DNA of 32,806 nt from assembly GCA_012521405.1 (NCBI GenBank), contig JAAYMK010000114.1, positions 1 to 32,806 of the forward strand. Direction: 5' to 3'. Numbering within the stretch: position 1 is the first letter of the stretch; every line of letters starts with the position of its first letter. Origin of the DNA: Bacillota bacterium (GTDB taxonomy: Bacteria; Bacillota; Dethiobacteria; Dethiobacterales; Dethiobacteraceae). A program made the position numbers and the translations under genes. This document shows, in pieces, positions 14,801-32,659 of the stretch. A model generated the notes under the pieces. It was not told where the DNA came from and searched no databases. It saw only the letters and a program-made list of their open reading frames with translations.

Positions 14801-17449
14801 ATGAAGAAACTAGTAATTGGTCTTTTAGCGCATGTTGATGCCGGTAAAACAACTTTAATCGAAAGTTTACTGTATGTAAGCGGCAATCTTCGTAAATTAG
14901 GCCGGGTCGATAAAAAAGATGCTTACCTGGATCATGAGGAGCTAGAAAGAGACAGGGGAATAACCATTTTTTCCAAACAGGCAATTTTGCAAACACCCGA
15001 TCTGCAAATTGTTTTTTTAGATACACCTGGACATATTGATTTTTCCGCCGAAATGGAAAGGACTCTGCAGGTTCTTGATTATGCCATTTTAGTTATCAGC
15101 GGGGCAGATGGTGTGGTAGGATACACAAAAACATTATGGCAGCTTTTAAAGGTGCAGCAAATACCTGTGTTTATTTTTGTCAATAAAATGGACCAAGAAG
15201 GTACCCTGCGGGATAAATTAATGGCTGAACTGCAAAAACAGTTAAGCGACTGCTGCCTCGATTTCGGGCAAGTGGGGACGAAAGTTTTTTCTGAACAGGC
15301 TGCCTTATGTGATGATAAATTGCTGGAAGCTTATCTGGAAAAGGAATACTTGGATAAGTCAGAGCTGCAAAGGGCTATTTATCAACGAAAAATTTTCCCC
15401 TGTTTTTTTGGTGCGGCTTTAAAACTTGAGGGCGTTAAAGCCCTGCTGGATGGTTTGAACCAGTATACAGTCATGCCTGCTTATCCCCGGGAGTTTAAAG
15501 CCAGGGTCTTTAAAATTGCCAGGGATAAACAGGGTAATCGCCTGACCTTTTTAAAAATCACCGGCGGGAAGTTAAAAGTTAAGGACGTTGTGCAGAGCAG
15601 TCTTTGGGAAGAAAAGGTTGATCAGATTCGTATCTATTCGGGGGAAAAATATGAGGTTGTTAATGAAGTGGAGGCGGGCAGTATTTGCGCCGTCACAGGT
15701 CTTACCCAAGCTAAACCGGGTGAAGGATTAGGCGCGGAAACCGGCGTCGCTACTTCCCTTTTAGAGCCGGTACTAACTTATCAGTTATTACCGCCGCCCG
15801 GCTGCAACCCTAAAGCGATTCTGCCTAAAGTGCGCCAGCTTGAAGAAGAAGATCCGCAGCTTAATATTTCCTGGGATGAAGAGACTCAGGAAATTCGCGT
15901 CCAAGTCATGGGTGAGATGCAGGTGGAAATCCTGCAGAGTCTGCTTAAAAACCGGTTTGCTCTGGATGTGACTTTTGCTTTTGGCAAAATTGTTTACAAG
16001 GAAACCATTGCTGAGGCGGTGGAAGGAGTAGGCCATTTTGCCACGGCGGAACAATATGCAGAAGTCCACCTTTTATTGGAGCCGGCAGAGCCGGGAAGTG
16101 GTCTTGTTTTTGCCGATGCCTGTAGTGAAGAAATGCTGGCACAAAACTGGAGAAGTTTGATTTTAAAATGTCTACAAAAAAAGGTGCATAAAGGCGTTTT
16201 GGTGGGTGCTCCCGTCACCGATCTGAAAATTACTTTGGTAGCCGGTCGCGGGCACAATAAGTATACTGATGAAATTGCTTTGCAAGAAGCCGCTTTGCGG
16301 GCAGTGCGTCAAGGTTTAATGGAAGCACAGTCCATTTTGTTGGAGCCCTACTATGCCTTTGAATTGGAAGTGCCGCAAAATTTAATTGGACGTGCCATGA
16401 CAGATATTGAAAGGATGCACGGTACCTGCCGGGTTTCACATTTGGAAGGGGAGCTGGCTGTACTGGAGGGAAAAGCGCCGGTTGTAAATTTGAGAAAGTA
16501 CCAGCCGGAAGTGAGAAGATATAGCGAGGGGCGGAGCAGACTTTTTTGCCGTGTAGCGGGATACGAGCCTTGCCATAATGCGGAAGAAGTGTTGTCCACG
16601 GTGGATTATGATGCGGAAAATGACGTGGAAAACCCTGCCGGTTCTGTTTTTTATCTAAACGGGGAAACGGTGATGGTACCTTGGCGGCAGGTAAAAGCAT
16701 ACATGCATGTCCCTAGTATTTTCCATAAGGAAAAACGAGACAGCAAAAAAGCGCGAACAAAGACGGAAGACCAAAACTGGATAGACCAGGAAGAAATTAA
16801 AAAAATTTTTGCGAAAACCTTTTTTGCCAACAAGAAAGAAAAAGTTTGCAAACGCAAACAGCAAAATTTACGCCGGCCGCCGGCAGGCGAGAAAGCCGAC
16901 AGCGAAAAAACAAAATCGCTTGCACCGCCCAAAGAGGAATATTTACTGGTGGACGGTTATAATATTATTTTTGCCTGGCCTGAGCTGAAGGCACTGGCTG
17001 AAGAAAGCCTTGATGCAGCCCGCTTAAAACTACTTGATTGCTTGAGTAAATACCAGAGTATACGTCAAAGTAAAATGATGGTTGTTTTTGATGCTTACCG
17101 GGTTCAGCGCCACCAAGAAGAAATTTTTGATTATGATAATTTACGGGTGGTCTTTACCAGAGAAGCACAGACGGCGGATCACTTTATTGAAAAATTTGCC
17201 CATGAACACCGGGAAGATTATAAAATCACCGTTGCCACTTCAGACAATTTGCAGCAAATTATCATTAGGGGAGCCGGGCATGCGGTCATGTCCGCCGCCA
17301 AGTTAAAGGAGGCAATGGTCGCAGCCGGTGAAAAAATTATGCAGGTTTATCGTGAGCAGCAGGTAGCACCGCAGAATGATCTTTACGGTGTGCTTTCAGA
17401 AGAAAACAAACGGCAGGTGAAAAAAATTTTGAGCAAGAACAATAAGTAA
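14801..17449 (+). CDS. EF-G/TetM-like ribosomal GTPase fused to a Rae1/YacP-like NYN endoribonuclease
   Basis: An 882-residue two-part protein. Residues 1 to about 640 form a translational GTPase of the TetM/TetO (ribosomal protection) branch of EF-G: G1 AHVDAGKT (10-17), 'DRGITIFSKQ' switch I, G3 DTPGH (74-78), G4 NKMD (128-131), then EF-G-like domains II-V. A basic Lys/Arg-rich linker (about 645-710) follows. Residues about 713-860 are a YacP/Rae1-type NYN domain starting VDGYNII, with four acidic residues typical of a PIN/NYN active site: D718, D764 (VFDAY), D793 (TADHFIE) and D815 (TSDN). TetM-like proteins enter the ribosomal A site; B. subtilis Rae1 cleaves mRNA in the A site. The fusion suggests a GTPase-delivered ribosome-associated nuclease. 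Tetracycline resistance is possible but not shown. Confidence 0.9.
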   Translation: MKKLVIGLLAHVDAGKTTLIESLLYVSGNLRKLGRVDKKDAYLDHEELERDRGITIFSKQAILQTPDLQIVFLDTPGHIDFSAEMERTLQVLDYAILVISGADGVVGYTKTLWQLLKVQQIPVFIFVNKMDQEGTLRDKLMAELQKQLSDCCLDFGQVGTKVFSEQAALCDDKLLEAYLEKEYLDKSELQRAIYQRKIFPCFFGAALKLEGVKALLDGLNQYTVMPAYPREFKARVFKIARDKQGNRLTFLKITGGKLKVKDVVQSSLWEEKVDQIRIYSGEKYEVVNEVEAGSICAVTGLTQAKPGEGLGAETGVATSLLEPVLTYQLLPPPGCNPKAILPKVRQLEEEDPQLNISWDEETQEIRVQVMGEMQVEILQSLLKNRFALDVTFAFGKIVYKETIAEAVEGVGHFATAEQYAEVHLLLEPAEPGSGLVFADACSEEMLAQNWRSLILKCLQKKVHKGVLVGAPVTDLKITLVAGRGHNKYTDEIALQEAALRAVRQGLMEAQSILLEPYYAFELEVPQNLIGRAMTDIERMHGTCRVSHLEGELAVLEGKAPVVNLRKYQPEVRRYSEGRSRLFCRVAGYEPCHNAEEVLSTVDYDAENDVENPAGSVFYLNGETVMVPWRQVKAYMHVPSIFHKEKRDSKKARTKTEDQNWIDQEEIKKIFAKTFFANKKEKVCKRKQQNLRRPPAGEKADSEKTKSLAPPKEEYLLVDGYNIIFAWPELKALAEESLDAARLKLLDCLSKYQSIRQSKMMVVFDAYRVQRHQEEIFDYDNLRVVFTREAQTADHFIEKFAHEHREDYKITVATSDNLQQIIIRGAGHAVMSAAKLKEAMVAAGEKIMQVYREQQVAPQNDLYGVLSEENKRQVKKILSKNNK

Positions 17450-17596: not shown

Positions 17597-19327
17597 ATGG
17601 ATTTTTTCCGCGCAACTTTCTATGACCGGTATACCCGGCTCACGGAGGAGCAGATCAGGGAAAAGCTTACACCGACACCAAAGGCGGCAAGTTTTTCTGC
17701 CACATCTGCAGCTTTAGCCGGAAAAACTTTAAAGCTTGTCTTGGATGACGGCCCTACTTTGGAATACTCCTTTGAGCAGGATACTTTAACACTTAAGGAA
17801 AATGGTCAAGCAGCCGTTGAAGCTCCCTACACAGCAAAAGAACTGCATGAAATTATGCTCTTTACCCATATGATTCCTGATACCGTCCGTGGTTACAATG
17901 TGATTTGGGACAGGAAAACAAATTTAGTTACCGTTTTTGAAGTTTGGTTCTGTGGCTTTGAACATGACAAACGGGAAGTTTGGCGCCATTATATGTTCGG
18001 TTATGTTGATACCGGGGAAGGCGCACCGGAAAAACGGCACACTTTAACCAATAGGCTGGAAGGTTTAGGCACATACTGGAAAAATGACAATGGTGAGGAA
18101 ATACTTTACTTCTTCCCCTCCGTTGTGTGGTCATCCTATGTGGAATTGAGCCATCCCCGCGGCGGCATCACCATCACCGGTCCTTCCGACTTTATCAAAA
18201 TAAGCGACAAATACTATGTTTTTTCCCGTGTTGACTGTGAATATTCCGGAAGTTTTATTTTAGAGGTCATAGACCTTTTTGAAGTGAAACATATTGGTGT
18301 GCGCCTGGGCTTTAATCTTGAGGATGAGCTGGACTATTATCTCTATAGCGGCTGCGGTGAAGTGACCGGAAAAGTAACTAATTTGGAACCGCTTTCCGAC
18401 TATGGTACGGAATTGCCGGAAGGGATAAAACCGAAACCAGGTGATCCTAAAGGCACCCGTCCTTCCTATCGTCCCCGCTTTTTATATCCTGACCTGACTA
18501 AAGAACAAGTTGATGAAATTATTAAAAACAAATGCAAAGTTTTTGCCGGCCGCTCCATTATGGCCAGCATGAATACCATGGAAGCGAGCGATTACATGGT
18601 GGGGAAAAAATTTACCCTCCGTTATGATGACGGTCCCGCTTGGGAATACGAGATTATTGATATCCAAACTTTAAGGTGGAGAGCAGAGGGCGAAGAAACT
18701 TGGCATGAAGAACTTTATCAAGGTTTTGAAGCGGCAAAAGACATTGTGCTCTTCAGTCATATTTGCACCGGTACCAATCCTTTACGCTGCCTGACCCATG
18801 CCGTTGATTTTTCCAAAGCTCTTGCCACTTGCGTGGACGCCCAGCTGGGTAATGGGCGGAAACCCTGGGAAGTTGGACGCCGGGCAATTTTTGGCGTGCT
18901 GGAAATGGAGGGAGGTCCTACGGCGCCGGCAGTGGAACGACACAGTTTCACAACCGAGTTGGTGGGCAGGGCGCAAGCCAACGTCTACAGTGATTTTATG
19001 CAGTCTGTTCATGTTTACAGCTCCCCCAATTCTTGCTCCTGGACAATTATGCTGCCCAATAACGCCGGCGGAGTTATGTGGAGTTCACCTTGTCTCTACG
19101 TGAAATTGCGCGATGATGCCTATCTTATCAGCTGGACGGAAGATACTTGCAACGGCAACCAGGGGACTTTTATCCTCAATACGCAGCTGTGGCAGGATTC
19201 CGGCTTCTTCTTTGGCATCGGCGGGCAAGGTGATGATGTAAGTGTGATGCTCACCACTTTGGGTGCTTATGTCCGTCCCCTTTTCGGTTACAATATTTTA
19301 AAATATTTTGCTAAAAAACGTAAGTAA
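17597..19327 (+). CDS. Duplicated MoaF-like (calycin-type barrel) protein
   Basis: A 576-residue protein made of two related MoaF-like halves (about 25-275 and 325-575). Each half starts with an equivalent strand pair, AGKTLKL..DDGPTLEY (DDGP at 50-53) and VGKKFTL.YDDGPAWEY (DDGP at 344-347), followed by 'ivLFsHi', a central 'G..W.vgRrai.fG' or 'REVWRHYMFGYVD', and a C-terminal beta segment. MoaF was named for the Klebsiella monoamine regulon; 'molybdenum cofactor biosynthesis protein F' is a misleading label and no molybdopterin gene is near. MoaF domains resemble lipocalin-like barrels that could bind a small ligand. No signal peptide. It has its own terminator, and lies directly before the glycyl radical enzyme pair. 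Function unknown. Confidence 0.75.
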   Translation: MDFFRATFYDRYTRLTEEQIREKLTPTPKAASFSATSAALAGKTLKLVLDDGPTLEYSFEQDTLTLKENGQAAVEAPYTAKELHEIMLFTHMIPDTVRGYNVIWDRKTNLVTVFEVWFCGFEHDKREVWRHYMFGYVDTGEGAPEKRHTLTNRLEGLGTYWKNDNGEEILYFFPSVVWSSYVELSHPRGGITITGPSDFIKISDKYYVFSRVDCEYSGSFILEVIDLFEVKHIGVRLGFNLEDELDYYLYSGCGEVTGKVTNLEPLSDYGTELPEGIKPKPGDPKGTRPSYRPRFLYPDLTKEQVDEIIKNKCKVFAGRSIMASMNTMEASDYMVGKKFTLRYDDGPAWEYEIIDIQTLRWRAEGEETWHEELYQGFEAAKDIVLFSHICTGTNPLRCLTHAVDFSKALATCVDAQLGNGRKPWEVGRRAIFGVLEMEGGPTAPAVERHSFTTELVGRAQANVYSDFMQSVHVYSSPNSCSWTIMLPNNAGGVMWSSPCLYVKLRDDAYLISWTEDTCNGNQGTFILNTQLWQDSGFFFGIGGQGDDVSVMLTTLGAYVRPLFGYNILKYFAKKRK

Positions 19328-19450: not shown

Positions 19451-19542
19451 CAATTAAGAAGTGTAGTAATAATCAGTCTTTTCCCAGTGCTTCGCCGCTT
19501 CAGTAAAGGTTCCGGAAATATAACCACAAGGAGGAGCAGTTG

Positions 19543-21996
19543 ATGCACGCGTCAAGACCTGTTACAGAGCGCATTCAGTATATGCGAGATTTGATACGCA
19601 ACAGAGTTATACGCAACGATGCTGAACGTGCCGTTATCATTACGGAAGCTTACAAAAAATATCAGCATGTGCTTCCCATTATTAAAAAACCGCTGGCAAT
19701 TTTGGAGTACTGTAAGAGAAAGAAAGTACGGGTGGAAGATTTTGAAGTAATTGTAGGCAACCGGGGCGAGCATTTTCTCGGGAATACTTATTGGGTTGAA
19801 TGGAATGGTGTTTTTCTTGAACCTTTTACCAATCCTGATTTTCCCGGCGCTTGGCACCTGGGGGAAGACGGCTTGTACCACAACCCCGAATCGGACTTGG
19901 TACGGCTGACCATTTCTCCGGAAGATGTGGAAAAGCTAAAAAGCATTAAAGAGTACTGGGATGAGAATGTCCTGACACGGATCGCAGATGCGTGGCAGCC
20001 CGACGGCTATGATGAGCTGTGCAAGCTGAATGTTTGTAAAAACGTTCCCGGGGCACCGCTGATTATGATGCAGTCCGGTCATGTCTCTCCCGGCTATAAA
20101 AAAATTATTAACACCGGTATTGGTGTCATCAGAAAGCAAGCTCAAGCTTGGATTGACAAACATAACGGCAATCTCATGGGCGATAAAATAAAGAAATATC
20201 TTTTCTATAAAGCTGTCGTCATTACCTGTGATGCCATGTCCATCTTGATTAAACGGTATGGTGAGGAATGCTACCGTAAGATGGAAGAGTGCAAGGATGA
20301 AAAACGTAAAGCGGAACTGAAAATGATGGGCGACGGGCTGATGTGGATTTCGGAAAATCCCGCGCGCACCTTCTGGGAAGCTTTGCAGCTCACCATTATG
20401 TACCAGCTGTATTTATATTCAGAAACCTGTTTCCCGGGTCCAGCTTTTGGGCGTATCGATCAATATACCTGGCCCTTTTTAAAGGCAGATCTTGAAGCGG
20501 GCCGCATTGATATGGACACAGCCCAGGAATATCTTGATGCCTTTTTCCTGAAAGCCAACTGTTTTTATGCAGGCGGCACAGGTAAACTGGCGGAAACCAC
20601 CGGTATCGGCAATACATACCAGCATACCACCATTGGCGGGGTAGATCCCAAAACCGGTGAAGATGCCACAAACCCTGTTACTTATATGGTGCTGGATACC
20701 ATGCGGCGTTTGCGCTTACATGATCCCACCATTTCCCTGCGGATCCATAAAAATACACCGGAAGATTTATGGGACTTAGCCATTGAGACGACAAAAGTTT
20801 GCGGCGGTATCCCCCTCTTACAAAATGACGATGTAATTATTCCGGCTTTAATGCGGGAGCTGGGCTTTTCCCTGGAAGATGCACGTGATTACTGCATTAT
20901 TGGTTGTCAAGAGATTGTGGGCAGCGGCAATGATTATCCGGCTTGTAACGGTGTTTCGCCGCCATATGCCAGTATCCACCATGGCGTGGTTCTGGCCATG
21001 ACCATTAATAACGGTATTAACCCTTTTAATGGCGAGCAGTGTAAGATCCAGCGCGGCTACCTGTATGAAATGACTGATTTCGAACAGGTAAAGAATGCTT
21101 ACAAGGAAATCCTTGAATATGTGACTAAACTGCAAGTTACCTTTGATAACTATGCGGAATATATTATTCAGCATTATGCCCCGCAGCCTGGCCTTTCCAT
21201 TTCCATTGAAGGCTGCATGGAAAAAGGTATGGACTGCACCTGGGGTGGTGCCAAGTACAATTCCTACGGCGGCACCGCCAGCGGCCTTGCCACCATTGCC
21301 GATTCCCTCACTGCCATTAAGTACATGGTCTTTGATAAAAAACTGTGTACGGCACGGGAAATGTATGACGCCATTATGGCCAACTGGGAAGGCTATGAGG
21401 AGCTGCGGCAGACTATCATTAATGAAGTTCCCCACTTTGGCAATGCCGATCCTTATGCCGATGAAATGATGAAGTGGGTTTGCGATACTTATTATGAAAT
21501 TTGCAAAAAATGTTACAGTGAAAGATCTCCCGTTTATAAAGCAGGACTTTACAGTGCTGCCGACCATATTGCGCAAGGTTACACAACTTGGGCTACACCG
21601 GATGGCAGGCGTACAGGCGAACCTATTGCCGATGCTGCTTCTCCGGTACAGGGCAGGGACCGCAACGGCCCCACTGCCGTCTGTATTTCCGCCACTTGCT
21701 ATGATCACAAACAATTTGTCAATGGTGTTTGTCTCAATTTACGCATTCATCCCTCTGCCCTTAAAGGCGAGGACGGCAAGAAAAAATTGCGCCAGTTGAC
21801 GCAAGCTTATTTTGCGCGGGGCGGCCTTGAGATCCAGTACAATATTGTGGATGCCGAGACCATGCGTGCCGCGCAAAAAGACCCCGATGCCTATCGCGAT
21901 CTGGTGGTGCGCATTGCAGGATTTTCGGCTTACTTTGTGGAACTAGGCCGTGACGGGCAAGACGATCTGATCAGGCGGACGGAGAATTTACTGTAA
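19543..21996 (+). CDS. Glycyl radical enzyme 1 (PFL-like, unusual GCQE active site)
   Basis: An 817-residue glycyl radical enzyme of the pyruvate formate-lyase/diol-dehydratase superfamily. The C-terminal radical motif RIAGFSAYF carries G793, 24 residues from the end. The active-site loop is GCQEIVGSGNDYP, with thiyl cysteine C455 and E457; the residue between them is Gln, where decarboxylases and dehydratases usually have Val or Ile. The Cys-x-Glu pattern places it among non-PFL members. ATG 19543 follows AAGGAGG at 8 bases; a TTG three bases upstream is not needed. Activity requires a radical-SAM activase, which is not in the window. Substrate unknown. Probably co-transcribed with the second enzyme. 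Confidence 0.9.
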   Translation: MHASRPVTERIQYMRDLIRNRVIRNDAERAVIITEAYKKYQHVLPIIKKPLAILEYCKRKKVRVEDFEVIVGNRGEHFLGNTYWVEWNGVFLEPFTNPDFPGAWHLGEDGLYHNPESDLVRLTISPEDVEKLKSIKEYWDENVLTRIADAWQPDGYDELCKLNVCKNVPGAPLIMMQSGHVSPGYKKIINTGIGVIRKQAQAWIDKHNGNLMGDKIKKYLFYKAVVITCDAMSILIKRYGEECYRKMEECKDEKRKAELKMMGDGLMWISENPARTFWEALQLTIMYQLYLYSETCFPGPAFGRIDQYTWPFLKADLEAGRIDMDTAQEYLDAFFLKANCFYAGGTGKLAETTGIGNTYQHTTIGGVDPKTGEDATNPVTYMVLDTMRRLRLHDPTISLRIHKNTPEDLWDLAIETTKVCGGIPLLQNDDVIIPALMRELGFSLEDARDYCIIGCQEIVGSGNDYPACNGVSPPYASIHHGVVLAMTINNGINPFNGEQCKIQRGYLYEMTDFEQVKNAYKEILEYVTKLQVTFDNYAEYIIQHYAPQPGLSISIEGCMEKGMDCTWGGAKYNSYGGTASGLATIADSLTAIKYMVFDKKLCTAREMYDAIMANWEGYEELRQTIINEVPHFGNADPYADEMMKWVCDTYYEICKKCYSERSPVYKAGLYSAADHIAQGYTTWATPDGRRTGEPIADAASPVQGRDRNGPTAVCISATCYDHKQFVNGVCLNLRIHPSALKGEDGKKKLRQLTQAYFARGGLEIQYNIVDAETMRAAQKDPDAYRDLVVRIAGFSAYFVELGRDGQDDLIRRTENLL

Positions 21997-22040: not shown

Positions 22041-22102
22041 CTTTTCCTTATAAACTTGATTACCGGGCTGGGACAAAAAGCGTGCTGTAGTAGAGGGGAA
22101 GA

Positions 22103-22124
22103 AGTGGTGCTTTACAGTACCACT
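22103..22124 (+). promoter_or_regulatory. Leader hairpin before glycyl radical enzyme 2
   Basis: AGTGGTGCT and AGTACCACT pair over 9 bp (one G-U) around a TTAC tetraloop, with no T-run, 42 bases before the start codon. Possibly a stabilising or regulatory mRNA element. I see no convincing separate promoter in 22032-22166. Confidence 0.35.
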
Positions 22125-22166
22125 AATCAGCAGTTAATTGCAAAAAAAGAACTGGAGGCAAGAATT

Positions 22167-24620
22167 ATGGCTTGGCAATTTAAACCTTTGACTGAACGTG
22201 TGGCAAGAATGCGCGAACGTTGGCGTAGTACAAAACCGGAAATTTGTATCGCGCGCTATAAAATTATTACCGAATTTTACAGGAAACATCCTGAACTTAA
22301 CGGTATCTTGCGCCGGGCAAAGGCTATGCATGAAATCTTTTCCAAAATCCCGGTGCGCATTGATGATGACGAAGTAATTGTAGGAGCCCAAGCGGCCAAA
22401 TTTAAAGCGGGAGCATTGTACCCGGAAAATTGCGTTACTTTTATTAAAGACGAAATTTGCAGCGGTTCCATCCGCACACGGGATATAGATCCTTACGATG
22501 TTTCCGACGAGGATATTGAGTATCTTAAAGAGACCATTGATTACTGGCTGTATGGAGAAAGTACACATGCGAAAACACAAGCTTATTATCCGGAAGAATA
22601 TGCGCCGCATGATTTTAACGGCGTGACCATGATTGGCCGCATGTGTATTAGTGATACCCCCGTGGGCCATTTTGTGGCCGGCTACGAGAAAGCCATCAAG
22701 GTTGGTTTTAAAGCCATTAAAGAAGAAGCGGAACGGAAAATGGCGGAAATCGTGGCGCAAGCTATGCCCGGCAACACCAATGAACAGTATAATTTTTATC
22801 GCGCCATTGCCATTGTCTGCGACGGTATGATTACGCTGACAAAACGCTATGCGAAGCTGGCCGCGGAAAAGCTGGCGGCAGAAACTGACCCGCAGCGGAA
22901 AAAAGAGCTGGCAATGATGGTGGAAACATTAAATTGGATTATGGAAAACCCGGCCCGTAATTTTGTGGAAGCGCTGCAATGCCTCTACATGTACCATACT
23001 TGCCTGTGTCTGGAAGGAAATATACATGGTATCAGTTTAGGCCGTGTCGATCAATACCTGGGTGAATTTTTGGAAAAAGACTTGCAAAACGGCACCATCA
23101 CAGAAGAATACGCGCAGGAACTGCTGGATCTCTTTTTCCTGAAAATAGTGGAAATCAATAAGCCCTGGAGTTATGGCGCTACCCAGTCTGCTCCCGGTTA
23201 TACCACGGGACAATTAATGACCTTAGGCGGCGTTGATAAAGACGGCAATGACGCTGCCAATAAAGTAAGTTATATGATGCTACAAAGTGTGGGACGTCTC
23301 AAACTGCATACGCCGCTGGCGCTTAGGGTGCATAAAAATACACCGCCCGAGCTTTGGGAAGCGGCCATTGAAACCAGCAAAATTTGCGGTGGTATTCCCA
23401 CTTTTGAAAATGACGATGTTATTATCCCGGCCCTGCTGAATAGAGGTTTTACCCTGGAAGACGCCCGCGATTATTCACTGATTGGTTGTGTGGAGCCGGG
23501 CGGTACCGGTAACGACTGGCCTGCCTGCGGCGGCACCGGCAGTGTCTCCTATATTAACCTTCCTAATGCCCTGTGGCTGGCCATTAATGACGGCTACCTG
23601 CCTGTACCGCTGCGTTTCGGCGCACCGAAAAAAGGTGACAAAGAACCCGAAATGATTAAGCAGCGGGTTGGCCTGCCTACAGGTTACCTGTATGAGATGG
23701 AAACCTTTGAGGAAGTGCTGGAAGCTTTCCGCAAACAGATGGAGTTTTTCGTCAGGTGGCATGTAATTGTCAACAATAATGCCGAATACGTCACGCGCGA
23801 AGTTTTACCGCTGCCGGTTGTTTCCGCAACCATGGAAGGCTGCATGGAAAAAGGTAAAGACGTAATGTACGGGGGAGCCAAGTATAACGGCACCGGTGTC
23901 CCCGGCATCGGCATTGGCAATATTGCCGACTCGCTCTTTATGATTAAACATCTTTGTTTTGATACGAAAAAATGTACCACCCGTGAATTATATGATGCCC
24001 TGATTAATAACTGGGAAGGTTATGAGGAGCTGCAGCAATATATTAAAGGTTCTGAGCTGCACTACGGTAACGGCAACCCAGAAGTGGATCAATGGGCGGC
24101 TTGGGCGGCGGAAAAATATGCAGAAATAGTTACTTCCTGCACCGGTCCCAGGGGACGTTACACGGCGGCTTTGTTCCCGGTAACAGCCCACGTCATGTTT
24201 GGTATGATGACTGCCGCCACCCCGGATGGACGTAATGCAGGTGTACCGCTGTCCGATGGTATTTCGCCCGTGCAGCAAATGGACAAAAAGGGTCCCACCG
24301 CCATTATCAGGTCTGTGGCCACCATTAAGCAGGGTGACTTTGCCAACGGGACCTTGCTCAATATGAAATTTAGTCCCTCTTGCCTAAGAGGCGAAGACGG
24401 TATTAAGAAATTAAGCCAGTTAATTCAAACCTACTTTAACCTTGGCGGTATGGAAGTGCAGATCAATGTGCTTTCCGCCGATATCCTGCGGGAGGCGCAA
24501 AAGAATCCGGATGAGTATAGAGATCTGGTGGTCAGGATAGCAGGCTTTTCCGCATATTTTGTGGAATTGCATGTGACCAGCCAAAATGAACTAATTTCCC
24601 GGACTGTTTTGGAAATGTAA
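22167..24620 (+). CDS. Glycyl radical enzyme 2 (diol-dehydratase/C-N-lyase-like GCVEP active site)
   Basis: An 817-residue glycyl radical enzyme, exactly the length of its upstream neighbour and with the radical glycine at the same position (G793 in RIAGFSAYF). The active-site loop is GCVEPGGTGNDWP, with thiyl cysteine C441 and base E443. GCVEP is the form seen in glycerol/propanediol dehydratases and choline trimethylamine-lyase, so a dehydration or C-N cleavage is plausible; the substrate cannot be read. I start at ATG 22167, behind GGAGG at 8 bases; an upstream in-frame ATG at 22056 would add 37 uncharacteristic residues. No microcompartment shell genes and no activase are present here. 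No clear terminator follows before the tyrS promoter. Confidence 0.9.
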   Translation: MAWQFKPLTERVARMRERWRSTKPEICIARYKIITEFYRKHPELNGILRRAKAMHEIFSKIPVRIDDDEVIVGAQAAKFKAGALYPENCVTFIKDEICSGSIRTRDIDPYDVSDEDIEYLKETIDYWLYGESTHAKTQAYYPEEYAPHDFNGVTMIGRMCISDTPVGHFVAGYEKAIKVGFKAIKEEAERKMAEIVAQAMPGNTNEQYNFYRAIAIVCDGMITLTKRYAKLAAEKLAAETDPQRKKELAMMVETLNWIMENPARNFVEALQCLYMYHTCLCLEGNIHGISLGRVDQYLGEFLEKDLQNGTITEEYAQELLDLFFLKIVEINKPWSYGATQSAPGYTTGQLMTLGGVDKDGNDAANKVSYMMLQSVGRLKLHTPLALRVHKNTPPELWEAAIETSKICGGIPTFENDDVIIPALLNRGFTLEDARDYSLIGCVEPGGTGNDWPACGGTGSVSYINLPNALWLAINDGYLPVPLRFGAPKKGDKEPEMIKQRVGLPTGYLYEMETFEEVLEAFRKQMEFFVRWHVIVNNNAEYVTREVLPLPVVSATMEGCMEKGKDVMYGGAKYNGTGVPGIGIGNIADSLFMIKHLCFDTKKCTTRELYDALINNWEGYEELQQYIKGSELHYGNGNPEVDQWAAWAAEKYAEIVTSCTGPRGRYTAALFPVTAHVMFGMMTAATPDGRNAGVPLSDGISPVQQMDKKGPTAIIRSVATIKQGDFANGTLLNMKFSPSCLRGEDGIKKLSQLIQTYFNLGGMEVQINVLSADILREAQKNPDEYRDLVVRIAGFSAYFVELHVTSQNELISRTVLEM

Positions 24621-24650: not shown

Positions 24651-24684
24651 AGGTGCTAATAAAACGAAACAATTTCATGGCGGA

Positions 24685-24937
24685 CAAGTGATGAAGGGAA
24701 GGAGTAGTTCAGTTAACATCTTTACAGAGAGTATCCGGCCGGTGTAAGGATACAGATGTACTGATACGAATACATCCCGGAACTGCGGCCTGAAATAATA
24801 GTAGGGTTTGCCGGGTACGCCCGTTACAGCGTACGAGTGTCTTTGACACTCACTGAGGGAAATTTCGTGAGGAATTTCCGTCACAGAGGTGGTACCGCAA
24901 TTTTTGCCCTCTGTTCCGGCTGGAACAGAGGTTTTTT
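24685..24937 (+). promoter_or_regulatory. Tyrosine-specific T-box riboswitch
   Basis: A tRNA-sensing T-box leader. Stem I has the AGTA element (24703-24706) opposite GAA-TAC-A, giving specifier codon TAC (Tyr) at 24771-24773. The conserved T-box core GGTGGTACCGC is at 24888-24898. The intrinsic terminator is CCTCTGTTCC (24908-24917) pairing with GGAACAGAGG (24922-24931), then six T. Uncharged tRNA-Tyr would stabilise the antiterminator and let transcription enter tyrS. The leader occupies the whole gap between the glycyl radical genes and tyrS. Confidence 0.95.
24908..24937 (+). terminator. Conditional terminator of the tyrS T-box
   Basis: Perfect 10-bp stem with GGCT loop and six T; the 5' arm lies just after the T-box sequence with which the antiterminator would compete. 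Confidence 0.9.
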
Positions 24938-24967: not shown

Positions 24968-26191
24968 ATGCAAATTTATGAAGAACTGGAAGCTCGCGGC
25001 TTAATTGCCCAGGTTACAGACGAAGAAGAAATCAAAAAACTTGTCAATGCAGGTAAAGCTGTTTTTTATATTGGTTTTGATCCCACCGCCGACTCTTTAC
25101 ATGTAGGACATTTTTTGCAGTTGAGCCTCATGAAGCGTTTGCAAATGGCGGGTAATACACCTGTAGTTTTAATCGGGGGGGGAACCGGCTATATTGGTGA
25201 TCCTTCCGGGCGGACAGATTTGCGGCAATTAATGACGCCGGAAGAAATAGAATATAATTGCCAGTGTTTTAAAAAACAGATGGAGAGGTTTATTGAATTT
25301 GGCGAAGGCAAAGCCATTATGGTCAATAACGCCGAGTGGCTGCTTAAACTGAACTATATTGAATTTTTGCGCGAAGTGGGGCCCCATTTTTCGGTGAATA
25401 CCATGCTGCGCGCCGAATGCTACAAGCAGCGGATGGAAAGAGGGCTTTCCTTCTTGGAATTTAACTATATGATTATGCAAGCCTATGATTTTTACCATCT
25501 TTTCCGGCATTACGGCTGTAATATGCAGTTTGGCGGCGATGACCAGTGGTCCAATATGCTGGCCGGTACGGAACTGATTCGCCGCAAATTGGGTAAAGAC
25601 GCCTATGCCATGACAGTGCCCCTTTTGATGACCGCAGAAGGACATAAAATGGGCAAAACCGCCAAAGGCGCCGTCTGGCTCGATCCGGAAAAAACATCAC
25701 CGTATGAGTTTTATCAGTACTGGCGCAATGTAGATGACGCTGATGTGATAAAATGCTTGCGGATGCTGACCTTCTTACCCCTGGAACAAATTGCGGAAAT
25801 GGAGACGTGGGAAGGGAGCCAGTTAAATGAAGCAAAAACTATTTTAGCCTTTGAACTGACAAAACTGGTGCACGGCGAGGAAGAAGCCCAAAAAGCCAAA
25901 GATGCAGCCTATGCTCTTTTTGTCAGCGGTACCGACAGTGCCACCATGCCCACCACGGAAATTGCAGCGGCAGACCTGACTGACGGAGCCATCAGTATTA
26001 TTGATTTGCTGGTGGCAACCGGTTTGACAAAATCAAAAAGTGAAGCCAGGCGTTTAGTACAGCAGGGGGGCGTCTATGTTGACGATGCCAAAGTGGATTC
26101 CATATCGGCTCTGGTCACAAAAGAGCAGCTGCAAGCCGGCGTCAAAATCCGCAAAGGCAAGAAAACTTACCATAAAGCTATCCTAAAATAA
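24968..26191 (+). CDS. tyrS: Tyrosyl-tRNA synthetase
   Basis: A 407-residue class I aminoacyl-tRNA synthetase that charges tRNA-Tyr. It has the HIGH-type motif HVGH (45-48), the '[13 protein letters not shown]' loop (70-82), the tyrosine-pocket region 'YDFYHL' and '[10 protein letters not shown]' (187-196), and the KMSKS-type loop KMGKT (227-231). The last about 65 residues are an S4-like RNA-binding domain ('[30 protein letters not shown]'). GGAGGGTG precedes the start. Expression is controlled by the tyrosine T-box upstream, which independently confirms the amino acid. A terminator follows. Confidence 0.97.
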
Positions 26192-30899: not shown

Positions 30900-30929
30900 T
30901 TGGCAAGATTTGAGAAATAATGCTATACT
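30900..30929 (+). promoter_or_regulatory. Promoter of the secreted protease gene
   Basis: TTGGCA at 30900-30905 and TATACT at 30924-30929, spacer 18, with a TGC extended -10. Confidence 0.65.
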
Positions 30930-30970
30930 TAAAGAGAGCTATATGCTTTTGCAAGCGAGGGGAAATTTCT

Positions 30971-32659
30971 ATGCATAGCAAAAATAAATTTTTTGGTTTG
31001 CTTTTTATTTTACTTGTTGTTTTCTTGTGCAGTAATCTTTTGCCTCCGGTGGTTTTTGCCGCTAAATACCAGACTTATGCGGAAAAATTGGCTAAAATTA
31101 ATGTTTTTCGTGGCACAGGTGAAGGTTTTGATTTGGAGCGGGAGCCCACACGGCTTGAGGGGCTGGTTATGCTCATTAGACTTTTAGGGGCGGAGGAAGA
31201 AGCAAAGCAAATTACCAAGTATACTTTTCCTTTCGCTGATGTGCCCAATTGGGGCAAAGGTTATGTCCAATATGCATATGAAAACGGTCTCACCAAAGGT
31301 ATTAGTCAAACAAAATTTGGCACAAATAACTTAATTGATGCTAAATCGTACTTAACTTTTTTACTGCGGGCCCTGGGGTACAGTGACCAGCACGGTGATT
31401 TTTCCTGGGGGGAAGCCGTAGAATTTGCCTTGGAAAAAGGTATTATTAGTGAGAGTATGTATTTTGAATTGAGCTCGCAAACTTTTTTACGGGATCATAT
31501 GGCTAAAACTTCCTATGATGCTTTAAATGCTTACATGAAAGGTACGGAAAAGAAATTAATCGGTTATTTAATCGAAAAGGGAAGTATTGATCCCATCAAG
31601 GCGCAGGCTGTTTTGGCCGGCGGCAATGGTAGTGAGGCATCCGGGGGACTTGATTTCGAAAAATTAATGGAAGCTTGTGTGTACATAGAAGTGGAAACAA
31701 AAAACGGCCGCAAAAGCGGCAGTGGGTTTTATCTTGACCGGCAGGGCACCATTGTTACCAATTACCATGTTATTGCTAAGGCACAAAAAATTAGCATTAT
31801 CAACAGTGACGGCAGTGCCTACACCGGCGAGGTAATCATTAAAGGTTATGATAAGGAATTGGATCTTGCCCTTTTAGCAATTGACCAAAAAAATAAATCA
31901 TTTTTACCCCTAGGTGACAGCAGCAGCGTTAAAGTGGGACAACCTGTTTATGCCATCGGCAGCCCTTTAGGCCTGCCCAATACTGTCTCGGAGGGTATCA
32001 TCAGCGGCATTAGGGAAAACGGTATTCAAACTACCGCTCCCATTAGTCCCGGAAGCAGCGGCGGTGCCCTCATTACACAAAAGGGTGAAGTTATCGGTAT
32101 AACCTATGCGGTAATGCAGGGTGGGGAGAATCTAGGGTTTGCCATCCCCATTGAGAAAATTTTTACCGTGCAAACAGATTTAAACTTGACGGTGGCAGAA
32201 TTTTTCGCCCGGGAAACCCCTGATCTGAAAAAATTTACTGAGCGCTTGGAGCGCCAATATCAAACAATTACTCTCAACGGCAAAAAAATTCGTATTGACG
32301 AAATCCATGTAAGTGGAGGGGAAAGTGGGATAGTTTTTATTGAGTTCATTTTTACGCATGATCTTGAAGCCTACTTGGATGCGGAAACGCTGGGCAGAGA
32401 CAGTTTATTGCGTGATTTTTCAGCACTGGCTTATACTTTTAGTAAGGATTTAAATGCCAATGTCTTTTTGCAGCTGTCGCTGATGACGGAAATGACTCGC
32501 TATCCTTACGCCTTTACTGAAAACGATATTTTAGACGAATTAAATTTAAATCCCATCACTTATCTGGGGAATAATACTTGGCTTGTTTACTTTCCTTTTG
32601 TTTATGTTTATGTAAACAACAGCAACAATATTTATTTGCATGGTTTTTGGTTTAATTAA
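30971..32659 (+). CDS. Secreted HtrA-like (S1C) serine protease with S-layer-homology-type N-terminus
   Basis: A 562-residue exported protein. Start ATG 30971 follows GAGGGGA and gives a classical signal peptide (1 to about 30, ending VFA-A). Residues about 35-195 resemble degenerate S-layer homology modules ('aeKLakinVFrGtgegFdLereptRlEglvmliRLLGaee', 'FaDVPnWgkgYvqYAyenGLtkGis...fg'), which would hold it on the cell wall. A trypsin-like domain (about 222-400) has the triad H266 (NYHVI), D298 (LDLALL) and S363 (GSSGGA). No PDZ domain follows, unlike most HtrA/DegP proteins; instead there is a roughly 160-residue tail of unknown type. Probably an envelope quality-control or processing protease. 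Confidence 0.88.
   Translation: MHSKNKFFGLLFILLVVFLCSNLLPPVVFAAKYQTYAEKLAKINVFRGTGEGFDLEREPTRLEGLVMLIRLLGAEEEAKQITKYTFPFADVPNWGKGYVQYAYENGLTKGISQTKFGTNNLIDAKSYLTFLLRALGYSDQHGDFSWGEAVEFALEKGIISESMYFELSSQTFLRDHMAKTSYDALNAYMKGTEKKLIGYLIEKGSIDPIKAQAVLAGGNGSEASGGLDFEKLMEACVYIEVETKNGRKSGSGFYLDRQGTIVTNYHVIAKAQKISIINSDGSAYTGEVIIKGYDKELDLALLAIDQKNKSFLPLGDSSSVKVGQPVYAIGSPLGLPNTVSEGIISGIRENGIQTTAPISPGSSGGALITQKGEVIGITYAVMQGGENLGFAIPIEKIFTVQTDLNLTVAEFFARETPDLKKFTERLERQYQTITLNGKKIRIDEIHVSGGESGIVFIEFIFTHDLEAYLDAETLGRDSLLRDFSALAYTFSKDLNANVFLQLSLMTEMTRYPYAFTENDILDELNLNPITYLGNNTWLVYFPFVYVYVNNSNNIYLHGFWFN

Follow-up and report, generated by a model that had tools for sequence, protein, structure and literature searches.

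The gene at positions 14801-17449 on the forward strand of the window (the whole stretch of 32,806 nucleotides that was analysed) encodes a translational GTPase fused to a Rae1/YacP-type NYN nuclease, and this fusion replaces the standalone Rae1, apparently in the same genomic role. Since it has taken the place of standalone Rae1 in many gut and soil Clostridia, the fusion is more likely a means of directing the nuclease to stalled ribosomes than simply one of antibiotic resistance. As the fusion is the cell's only Rae1 and has displaced the separate gene from the genome, the best reading is mRNA cleavage in the A site under guidance of the GTPase, and to such a ribosome-targeted Rae1-type mRNA nuclease we assign a probability of roughly 60 %. 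What is new here is the replacement of Rae1, the single clade of fused NYN domains with three lost arginines, and the position of the GTPase in a clade that is not that of the Tet proteins.

Domain organization of the fusion protein

The gene is one unbroken frame of 882 amino acids with an ATG start. Five EF-G-type domains come first, then a basic linker that is disordered, and a YacP/Rae1 NYN domain forms the C-terminal part. All six Pfam matches lie above the curated cut-off, namely GTP_EFTU (residues 5-222, E-value 3.3e-47), EF-G_D2 (231-303, 2.3e-9), EFG_III (323-392, 1e-12), EFG_IV (395-510, 4.2e-19), EFG_C (513-593, 4.4e-15) and NYN_YacP (715-876, 4.7e-46; 157.3 bits against a cut-off of 24.6). 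The GTPase domain (residues 1-222; 14801-15466, like all parts of the protein on the forward strand) carries the motifs G1 AHVDAGKTT, G2 RGITIF, G3 DTPGH with the catalytic His78, and G4 NKMD, whose residues are invariant or nearly so in an alignment of 31 rows. The G1, G3 and G4 motifs of a TetM/EF-G-like GTPase, named in a preliminary description of this DNA, are thus borne out by direct reading and by Pfam; with the G1-G4 motifs, the catalytic histidine and domains II-V, the protein is a translational GTPase of the EF-G/EF-2 superfamily. Domains II and III (residues 231-392; 15491-15976) and domain V (residues 513-593; 16337-16579) are assigned by Pfam, and domain IV (residues 395-510; 15983-16330) by Pfam together with the full-length model (pLDDT 83, with the linker below 50), whose structural match is EF-G. 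In the alignments the tip loop of domain IV reads GRGHNKYTDEIALQ (residues 482-495; 16244-16285; family consensus GRAHxKHTEGGDFR), and domain V is followed by a family-specific extension of the GTPase (16580-16720) with the consensus GSVFC..G.GF.V.WD.VK.YMH, which is also found in relatives that have no NYN domain.

The linker (residues 641-711; 16721-16933) is rich in lysine and arginine, in line with the basic linker of the preliminary description, and is predicted to be disordered apart from one short helix, with pLDDT mostly below 50 (at residues 645-662 and 674-707). It is poorly conserved, its identity to a relative, L039, being 49 % as against 83 % for the NYN domain. The nuclease domain itself covers residues 712-855 (16934-17365), and the C-terminal tail (residues 856-882; 17366-17446), judged by motif counts and by the columns of R165 and R166, is without the W-R-R motif of standalone Rae1. 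Scans for promoters and terminators gave matches no more numerous than in shuffled sequence.

Directly downstream of the fusion, at 17597-19327, lies a gene for a 576-residue protein with two MoaF-like stretches and a MoaF_C domain, a neighbour conserved in the closest relatives only. Further along the window are two adjacent glycyl-radical enzymes of the PFL-like type (19540-21996 and 22056-24620; below every NCBIfam equivalog cut-off), an ordinary T-box leader (24682-24914; Rfam RF00230, E-value 1e-24) immediately before a gene for tyrosyl-tRNA synthetase (24968-26191), and a trypsin-like protease that includes an S-layer homology stretch (30920-32659).

The C-terminal domain belongs to the Rae1 nuclease family

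Rae1 was reportedly characterised in 2017. Searched against PDB sequences, the C-terminal 182 residues match Rae1/YacP only (1e-19). On comparison of predicted structures with Rae1, which the preliminary description had proposed as a check, the model of residues 708-882 (pLDDT 88) has B. subtilis Rae1 (5mq9, 5mq8) as its sole PDB matches at E-values of 0.001 or less, the Foldseek match to 5mq9 having an E-value of 6.8e-11 and TM-scores of 0.69-0.76. The four aspartates on which the earlier assignment of a C-terminal NYN domain had rested, D718, D764, D793 and D815, are each identical in 31/31 aligned fusions, so that this assignment stands on their invariance as well as on Pfam NYN_YacP; N721, R741, E797 and S814 are likewise invariant in the 31. 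The aspartates are the counterparts of D7, D53, D81 and D104 of B. subtilis, the catalytic acidic residues, and their sequence positions taken with the match to the Rae1 fold suggest that they would be clustered in space. In a separate comparison of 37 standalone with 44 fused NYN domains the catalytic set is identical between the two groups, and the catalytic residues are invariant in 44/44 fused domains. Both halves of the fusion are under purifying selection, the ratio of dN to dS against L039 being 0.067 for the NYN domain and 0.099 for the GTPase, values that are rough because dS exceeds 1 and is near saturation. Rae1 is described in one report as an A-site endoribonuclease (PMC6613710), and in another its activity is stated to need translation (PMC10100781).

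Distribution and history of the fusion

The combination of a Tet-type GTPase with a YacP-like NYN domain was reported for ten Clostridiales in one paragraph by Atkinson 2015, where an antibiotic-resistance mechanism with RNase activity was suggested without test (PMC4342817), and the protein of the window, a TetM-like GTPase and a YacP-like NYN domain in a single polypeptide, is of the same kind. The long TetM-like proteins in Clostridia mentioned in the preliminary description therefore do exist, as reported in 2015 (PMC4342817), and its remark that they had no described mechanism was nearly right, failing only in that the resistance and RNase suggestion had already been made (PMC4342817). 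The architecture is thus already known, and its distribution is far wider than ten Clostridiales. Among 398 genomes of the phylum with completeness of at least 90 %, a single-frame fusion is present in 27, which are spread over 12 families, so that their independence of one another is limited. Ten genomes of the window's own family carry it, and all the fusion-bearing relatives in this family have it in a single frame, one of them being broken by a run of N at an assembly gap. Two separate genes in related genomes, which the preliminary description had named as a finding that would speak against it, are not what the recurrent single-frame fusions in the phylum and in the family show. On scanning the GTDB contig collection, at least 594 stretches were found to encode a relative of the C-terminal half of the GTPase, and in the best 80 of these the NYN domain is present in almost all that have a readable frame. 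Solo GTPases, which are without the NYN domain, number six in the phylum sample (standalone rae1 is kept in four of these genomes and is absent from two) and are also seen in further Bacilli.

Quick trees were built without bootstrap, and support is given as SH-aLRT. The fused NYN domains group together in a single clade (97) and are of single origin. The GTPases of the fusions and of their solo relatives likewise form one clade (99), apart from that of Tet(M/O/S/W/36) (100), and most of the solo GTPases from Bacilli branch as sisters of the fusions. Nested within the fused clade is an NYN-less GTPase from a Ligilactobacillus salivarius plasmid (44 Ligilactobacillus records matched), for which a secondary loss of the NYN domain is likely. 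The fusion of the window's family clusters, in the NYN tree as well as in the GTPase tree, with sequences of another class (f11, with Desulfosporosinus among its members), and other families of the window's class keep standalone rae1; these two grounds suggest, as the simplest reading, that the fusion was gained horizontally and that the native rae1 was lost afterwards.

On the L. salivarius plasmid pR1 (L119, 4530-6920) the NYN-less relative adjoins a paralogue of rpsN (S14) on the megaplasmid, and genes related to it are present in many L. salivarius plasmids. Two metagenomic records labelled 'Bacteriophage sp.', MT835514 (L129) and MT835563, encode relatives of the fusion that are close to full length; these records lack annotation, may be bacterial contigs wrongly filed as phage, and were left out of the analysis. 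One genome with an intact fusion (G450) has in addition a second, stop-containing fragment of GTPase domain IV (L250; C4:58574-59239).

Replacement of standalone rae1

If the fused NYN domain does the job of Rae1, a standalone rae1 gene is expected to be dispensable. The genome of the window has no NYN_YacP gene besides the fusion, and exactly one such gene is found in each of 35/35 fused genomes (the 27 of the phylum set and 8 more from a class set). A standalone NYN_YacP copy is present in 187 of the 371 non-fused phylum genomes, and the chance of finding none in the 27 is 6e-9 if genomes are taken as independent and, approximately, 2e-4 if counted by the 12 families. Weak extra matches in fused genomes were, on inspection, 5'-nuclease domains of DNA polymerase I. 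Two genomes with two real NYN_YacP matches had in one case an identical duplicate and in the other a gene split over contigs, and neither genome has the fusion.

Gene order tells of the same displacement. In B. subtilis the order is cysS-mrnC-rlmB-rae1-sigH, and in 15 of the 16 fused genomes tested sigH comes next after rlmB and rae1 is missing, the remaining genome being without synteny; the gap between rlmB and sigH in the window's genome is 156 bp. All unfused controls (4/4), among them a member of the window's own family, have rae1 in place between rlmB and sigH.

Relationship to tetracycline protection proteins

One alternative, following Atkinson 2015, is a ribosome protection protein against tetracycline or another A-site drug with an added RNase, in which the GTPase would dislodge the drug and the NYN domain would trim rRNA or clear mRNA from the drug-stalled ribosome (PMC4342817). 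Besides that published proposal, it is favoured by the profile match, since tet_protect is the best NCBIfam match of the protein, and by the names given by NCBI, where several relatives are called TetM/TetW/TetO/TetS family. Tetracycline resistance is indeed conferred by a chromosomal TetM-like GTPase of 647 residues from B. toyonensis (PMC5209696), which may belong to the solo branch of the clade; on a search with the published primer sequences of this gene, none of 397 Bacillales genomes matched, nor did any plasmid record.

The tet_protect match, however, amounts to 412.8 bits and lies below the equivalog cut-off of 775, and the GTPase falls outside the Tet clade. Tet proteins, the divergent tet(36) included, have YYSPVSTPADFR (the YYSPVSTPADF loop) at the tip of domain IV, with a proline that occupies the drug site (PMC8161019), and EF-G has SFHEVDSSEMAFK at the same place. 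In the fusion family and in its solo relatives the tip loop is HxKHTxGGDFR, and YYSPVSTPADFR with its drug-contacting proline is absent. In the 95 loci analysed no neighbouring gene family occurs in more than 13, none stands at a fixed place, and no link to an operon or mobile element was seen. The fusion is tied to the loss of a housekeeping nuclease and not to resistance islands. A phylogeny of the GTPase against TetM, one of the comparisons proposed in the preliminary description, does not group it with Tet(M/O/S/W/36). These observations weaken the ribosome-protection half of that description: a role in tetracycline protection is the less likely one, and the resistance protein with an added RNase is, in our judgement, unlikely.

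Loss of conserved arginines in the fused domains

In the comparison of 37 standalone and 44 fused domains (B. subtilis numbering) three arginines conserved in standalone Rae1, R118 (36/37), R165 (34/37) and R166 (32/37), are lost from the fused domains, and in B. subtilis the rae1 allele R166P causes loss of function (PMC6613710). The tail is also altered. A strict W-R-R pattern is present in 24/37 standalone and 0/93 fused proteins, a relaxed one in 35/37 and 7/44 respectively, and some fused proteins have no C-terminal tail. Free Rae1 may use the three arginines to hold the ribosome, and they would have become unnecessary if the GTPase took over this holding. Equally, their loss could reflect a fused nuclease that has ceased to act in the A site or has a different RNA as its target.

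A second alternative is that the two halves are functionally unrelated, an EF-G-like factor (which might, for example, restart or recycle stalled ribosomes) being joined to a nuclease for tRNA or rRNA maturation or for free RNA. The lost arginines agree with it, as do the long and variable linker, the existence of solo GTPases without the NYN domain and a former proposal, as cited in PMC4342817, that NYN domains are processors of tRNA and rRNA. Yet the fusion is kept across 12 families with standalone Rae1 absent each time, and the nuclease belongs to the Rae1 family by sequence and by fold, and we therefore regard unrelated halves as rather improbable. A catalytically dead NYN relic that merely binds RNA or the ribosome is very improbable, for even with the tail missing from some fused proteins and with an NYN domain that can evidently be lost, given the L. 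salivarius member nested among the fusions, all catalytic residues are invariant (31/31 and 44/44) and the dN/dS ratio is about 0.07.

A proposed mechanism for ribosome-targeted mRNA cleavage

EF-G and TetM put domain IV into the A site. For a GTPase-guided nuclease we infer ribosome binding, A-site entry, mRNA cleavage and an order of the GTPase and nuclease steps as follows. The EF-G/TetM-like module would recognise ribosomes with an accessible A site, whether paused or stalled, and domain IV would dock towards the decoding centre. Because domain IV and the Rae1 domain would compete for the same space in the A site, the steps would have to be sequential: GTP hydrolysis or withdrawal of domain IV would free the A site, and the NYN domain, on a flexible tether some 70 residues long that starts from the end of domain V, could then enter the vacated site and cut the mRNA there. 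The fusion would in this way do the job of the separate, operon-encoded Rae1 of Bacillus, with the GTPase substituting for the arginine contacts of the free enzyme with the ribosome. That GTP gates the cut is a tentative element, held at somewhat below even odds. Some Bacilli have a solo GTPase together with a standalone Rae1, so the modules can work apart, which counts against a joint mechanism.

The combined reading of the preliminary description, a single polypeptide that recognises stalled or drug-bound ribosomes and cuts the mRNA, accordingly survives as far as the GTPase, the Rae1-type nuclease and the fusion as the only Rae1 are concerned, and is weakened in its drug-resistance half. 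At its most ambitious, the proposal is of a one-protein, GTP-gated no-go decay machine in many Lachnospiraceae-type Clostridia, in which the GTPase replaces free diffusion and arginine contacts and which took over from the standalone Rae1, with horizontal transfer on at least one occasion; we consider this possible and lean slightly against it. If this is true, bacteria would have a counterpart of no-go decay in a single protein. A natural fusion that has replaced Rae1 in a large group of bacteria from gut and soil joins the nuclease to a putatively ribosome-binding GTPase, and the way in which Rae1 selects its ribosomes, perhaps with gating of the cut by GTP, thereby becomes directly testable. 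Many such housekeeping-like genes are labelled as tetracycline resistance in public gut genomes, and counts of the resistome may be inflated by these labels.

Comparison with known systems

The solo GTPases of Bacilli and L. salivarius share with the protein of the window the GTPase clade, the tip loop and the extension, and differ in having no nuclease domain. The Clostridial fusions of Atkinson 2015 have the same architecture, and in RefSeq are named 'translation factor GTPase family protein'; that account covers ten species, and the replacement of Rae1 and cleavage in the A site lie outside its scope (PMC4342817). Tet(M) and Tet(O), the closest named family by profile, resemble the GTPase in having five EF-G-like domains, a similar size and a C-terminal helix after domain V, whereas identity is about 29 %, the clade is separate, and the protein of the window lacks the YYSPVSTPADF tip loop, has the additional WD.VK.YMH extension and the NYN domain, and is in no mobile context that could be seen. 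Unlike Rae1/YacP of B. subtilis (5mq8, 5mq9), it is without R118, R165, R166 and the W-R-R tail, is encoded outside the cysS-mrnC-rlmB-rae1-sigH operon and is fused to a translational GTPase, and it shares with Rae1 the NYN fold, the catalytic set of Asp, Asn, Arg and Glu, and the occurrence of one copy per genome.
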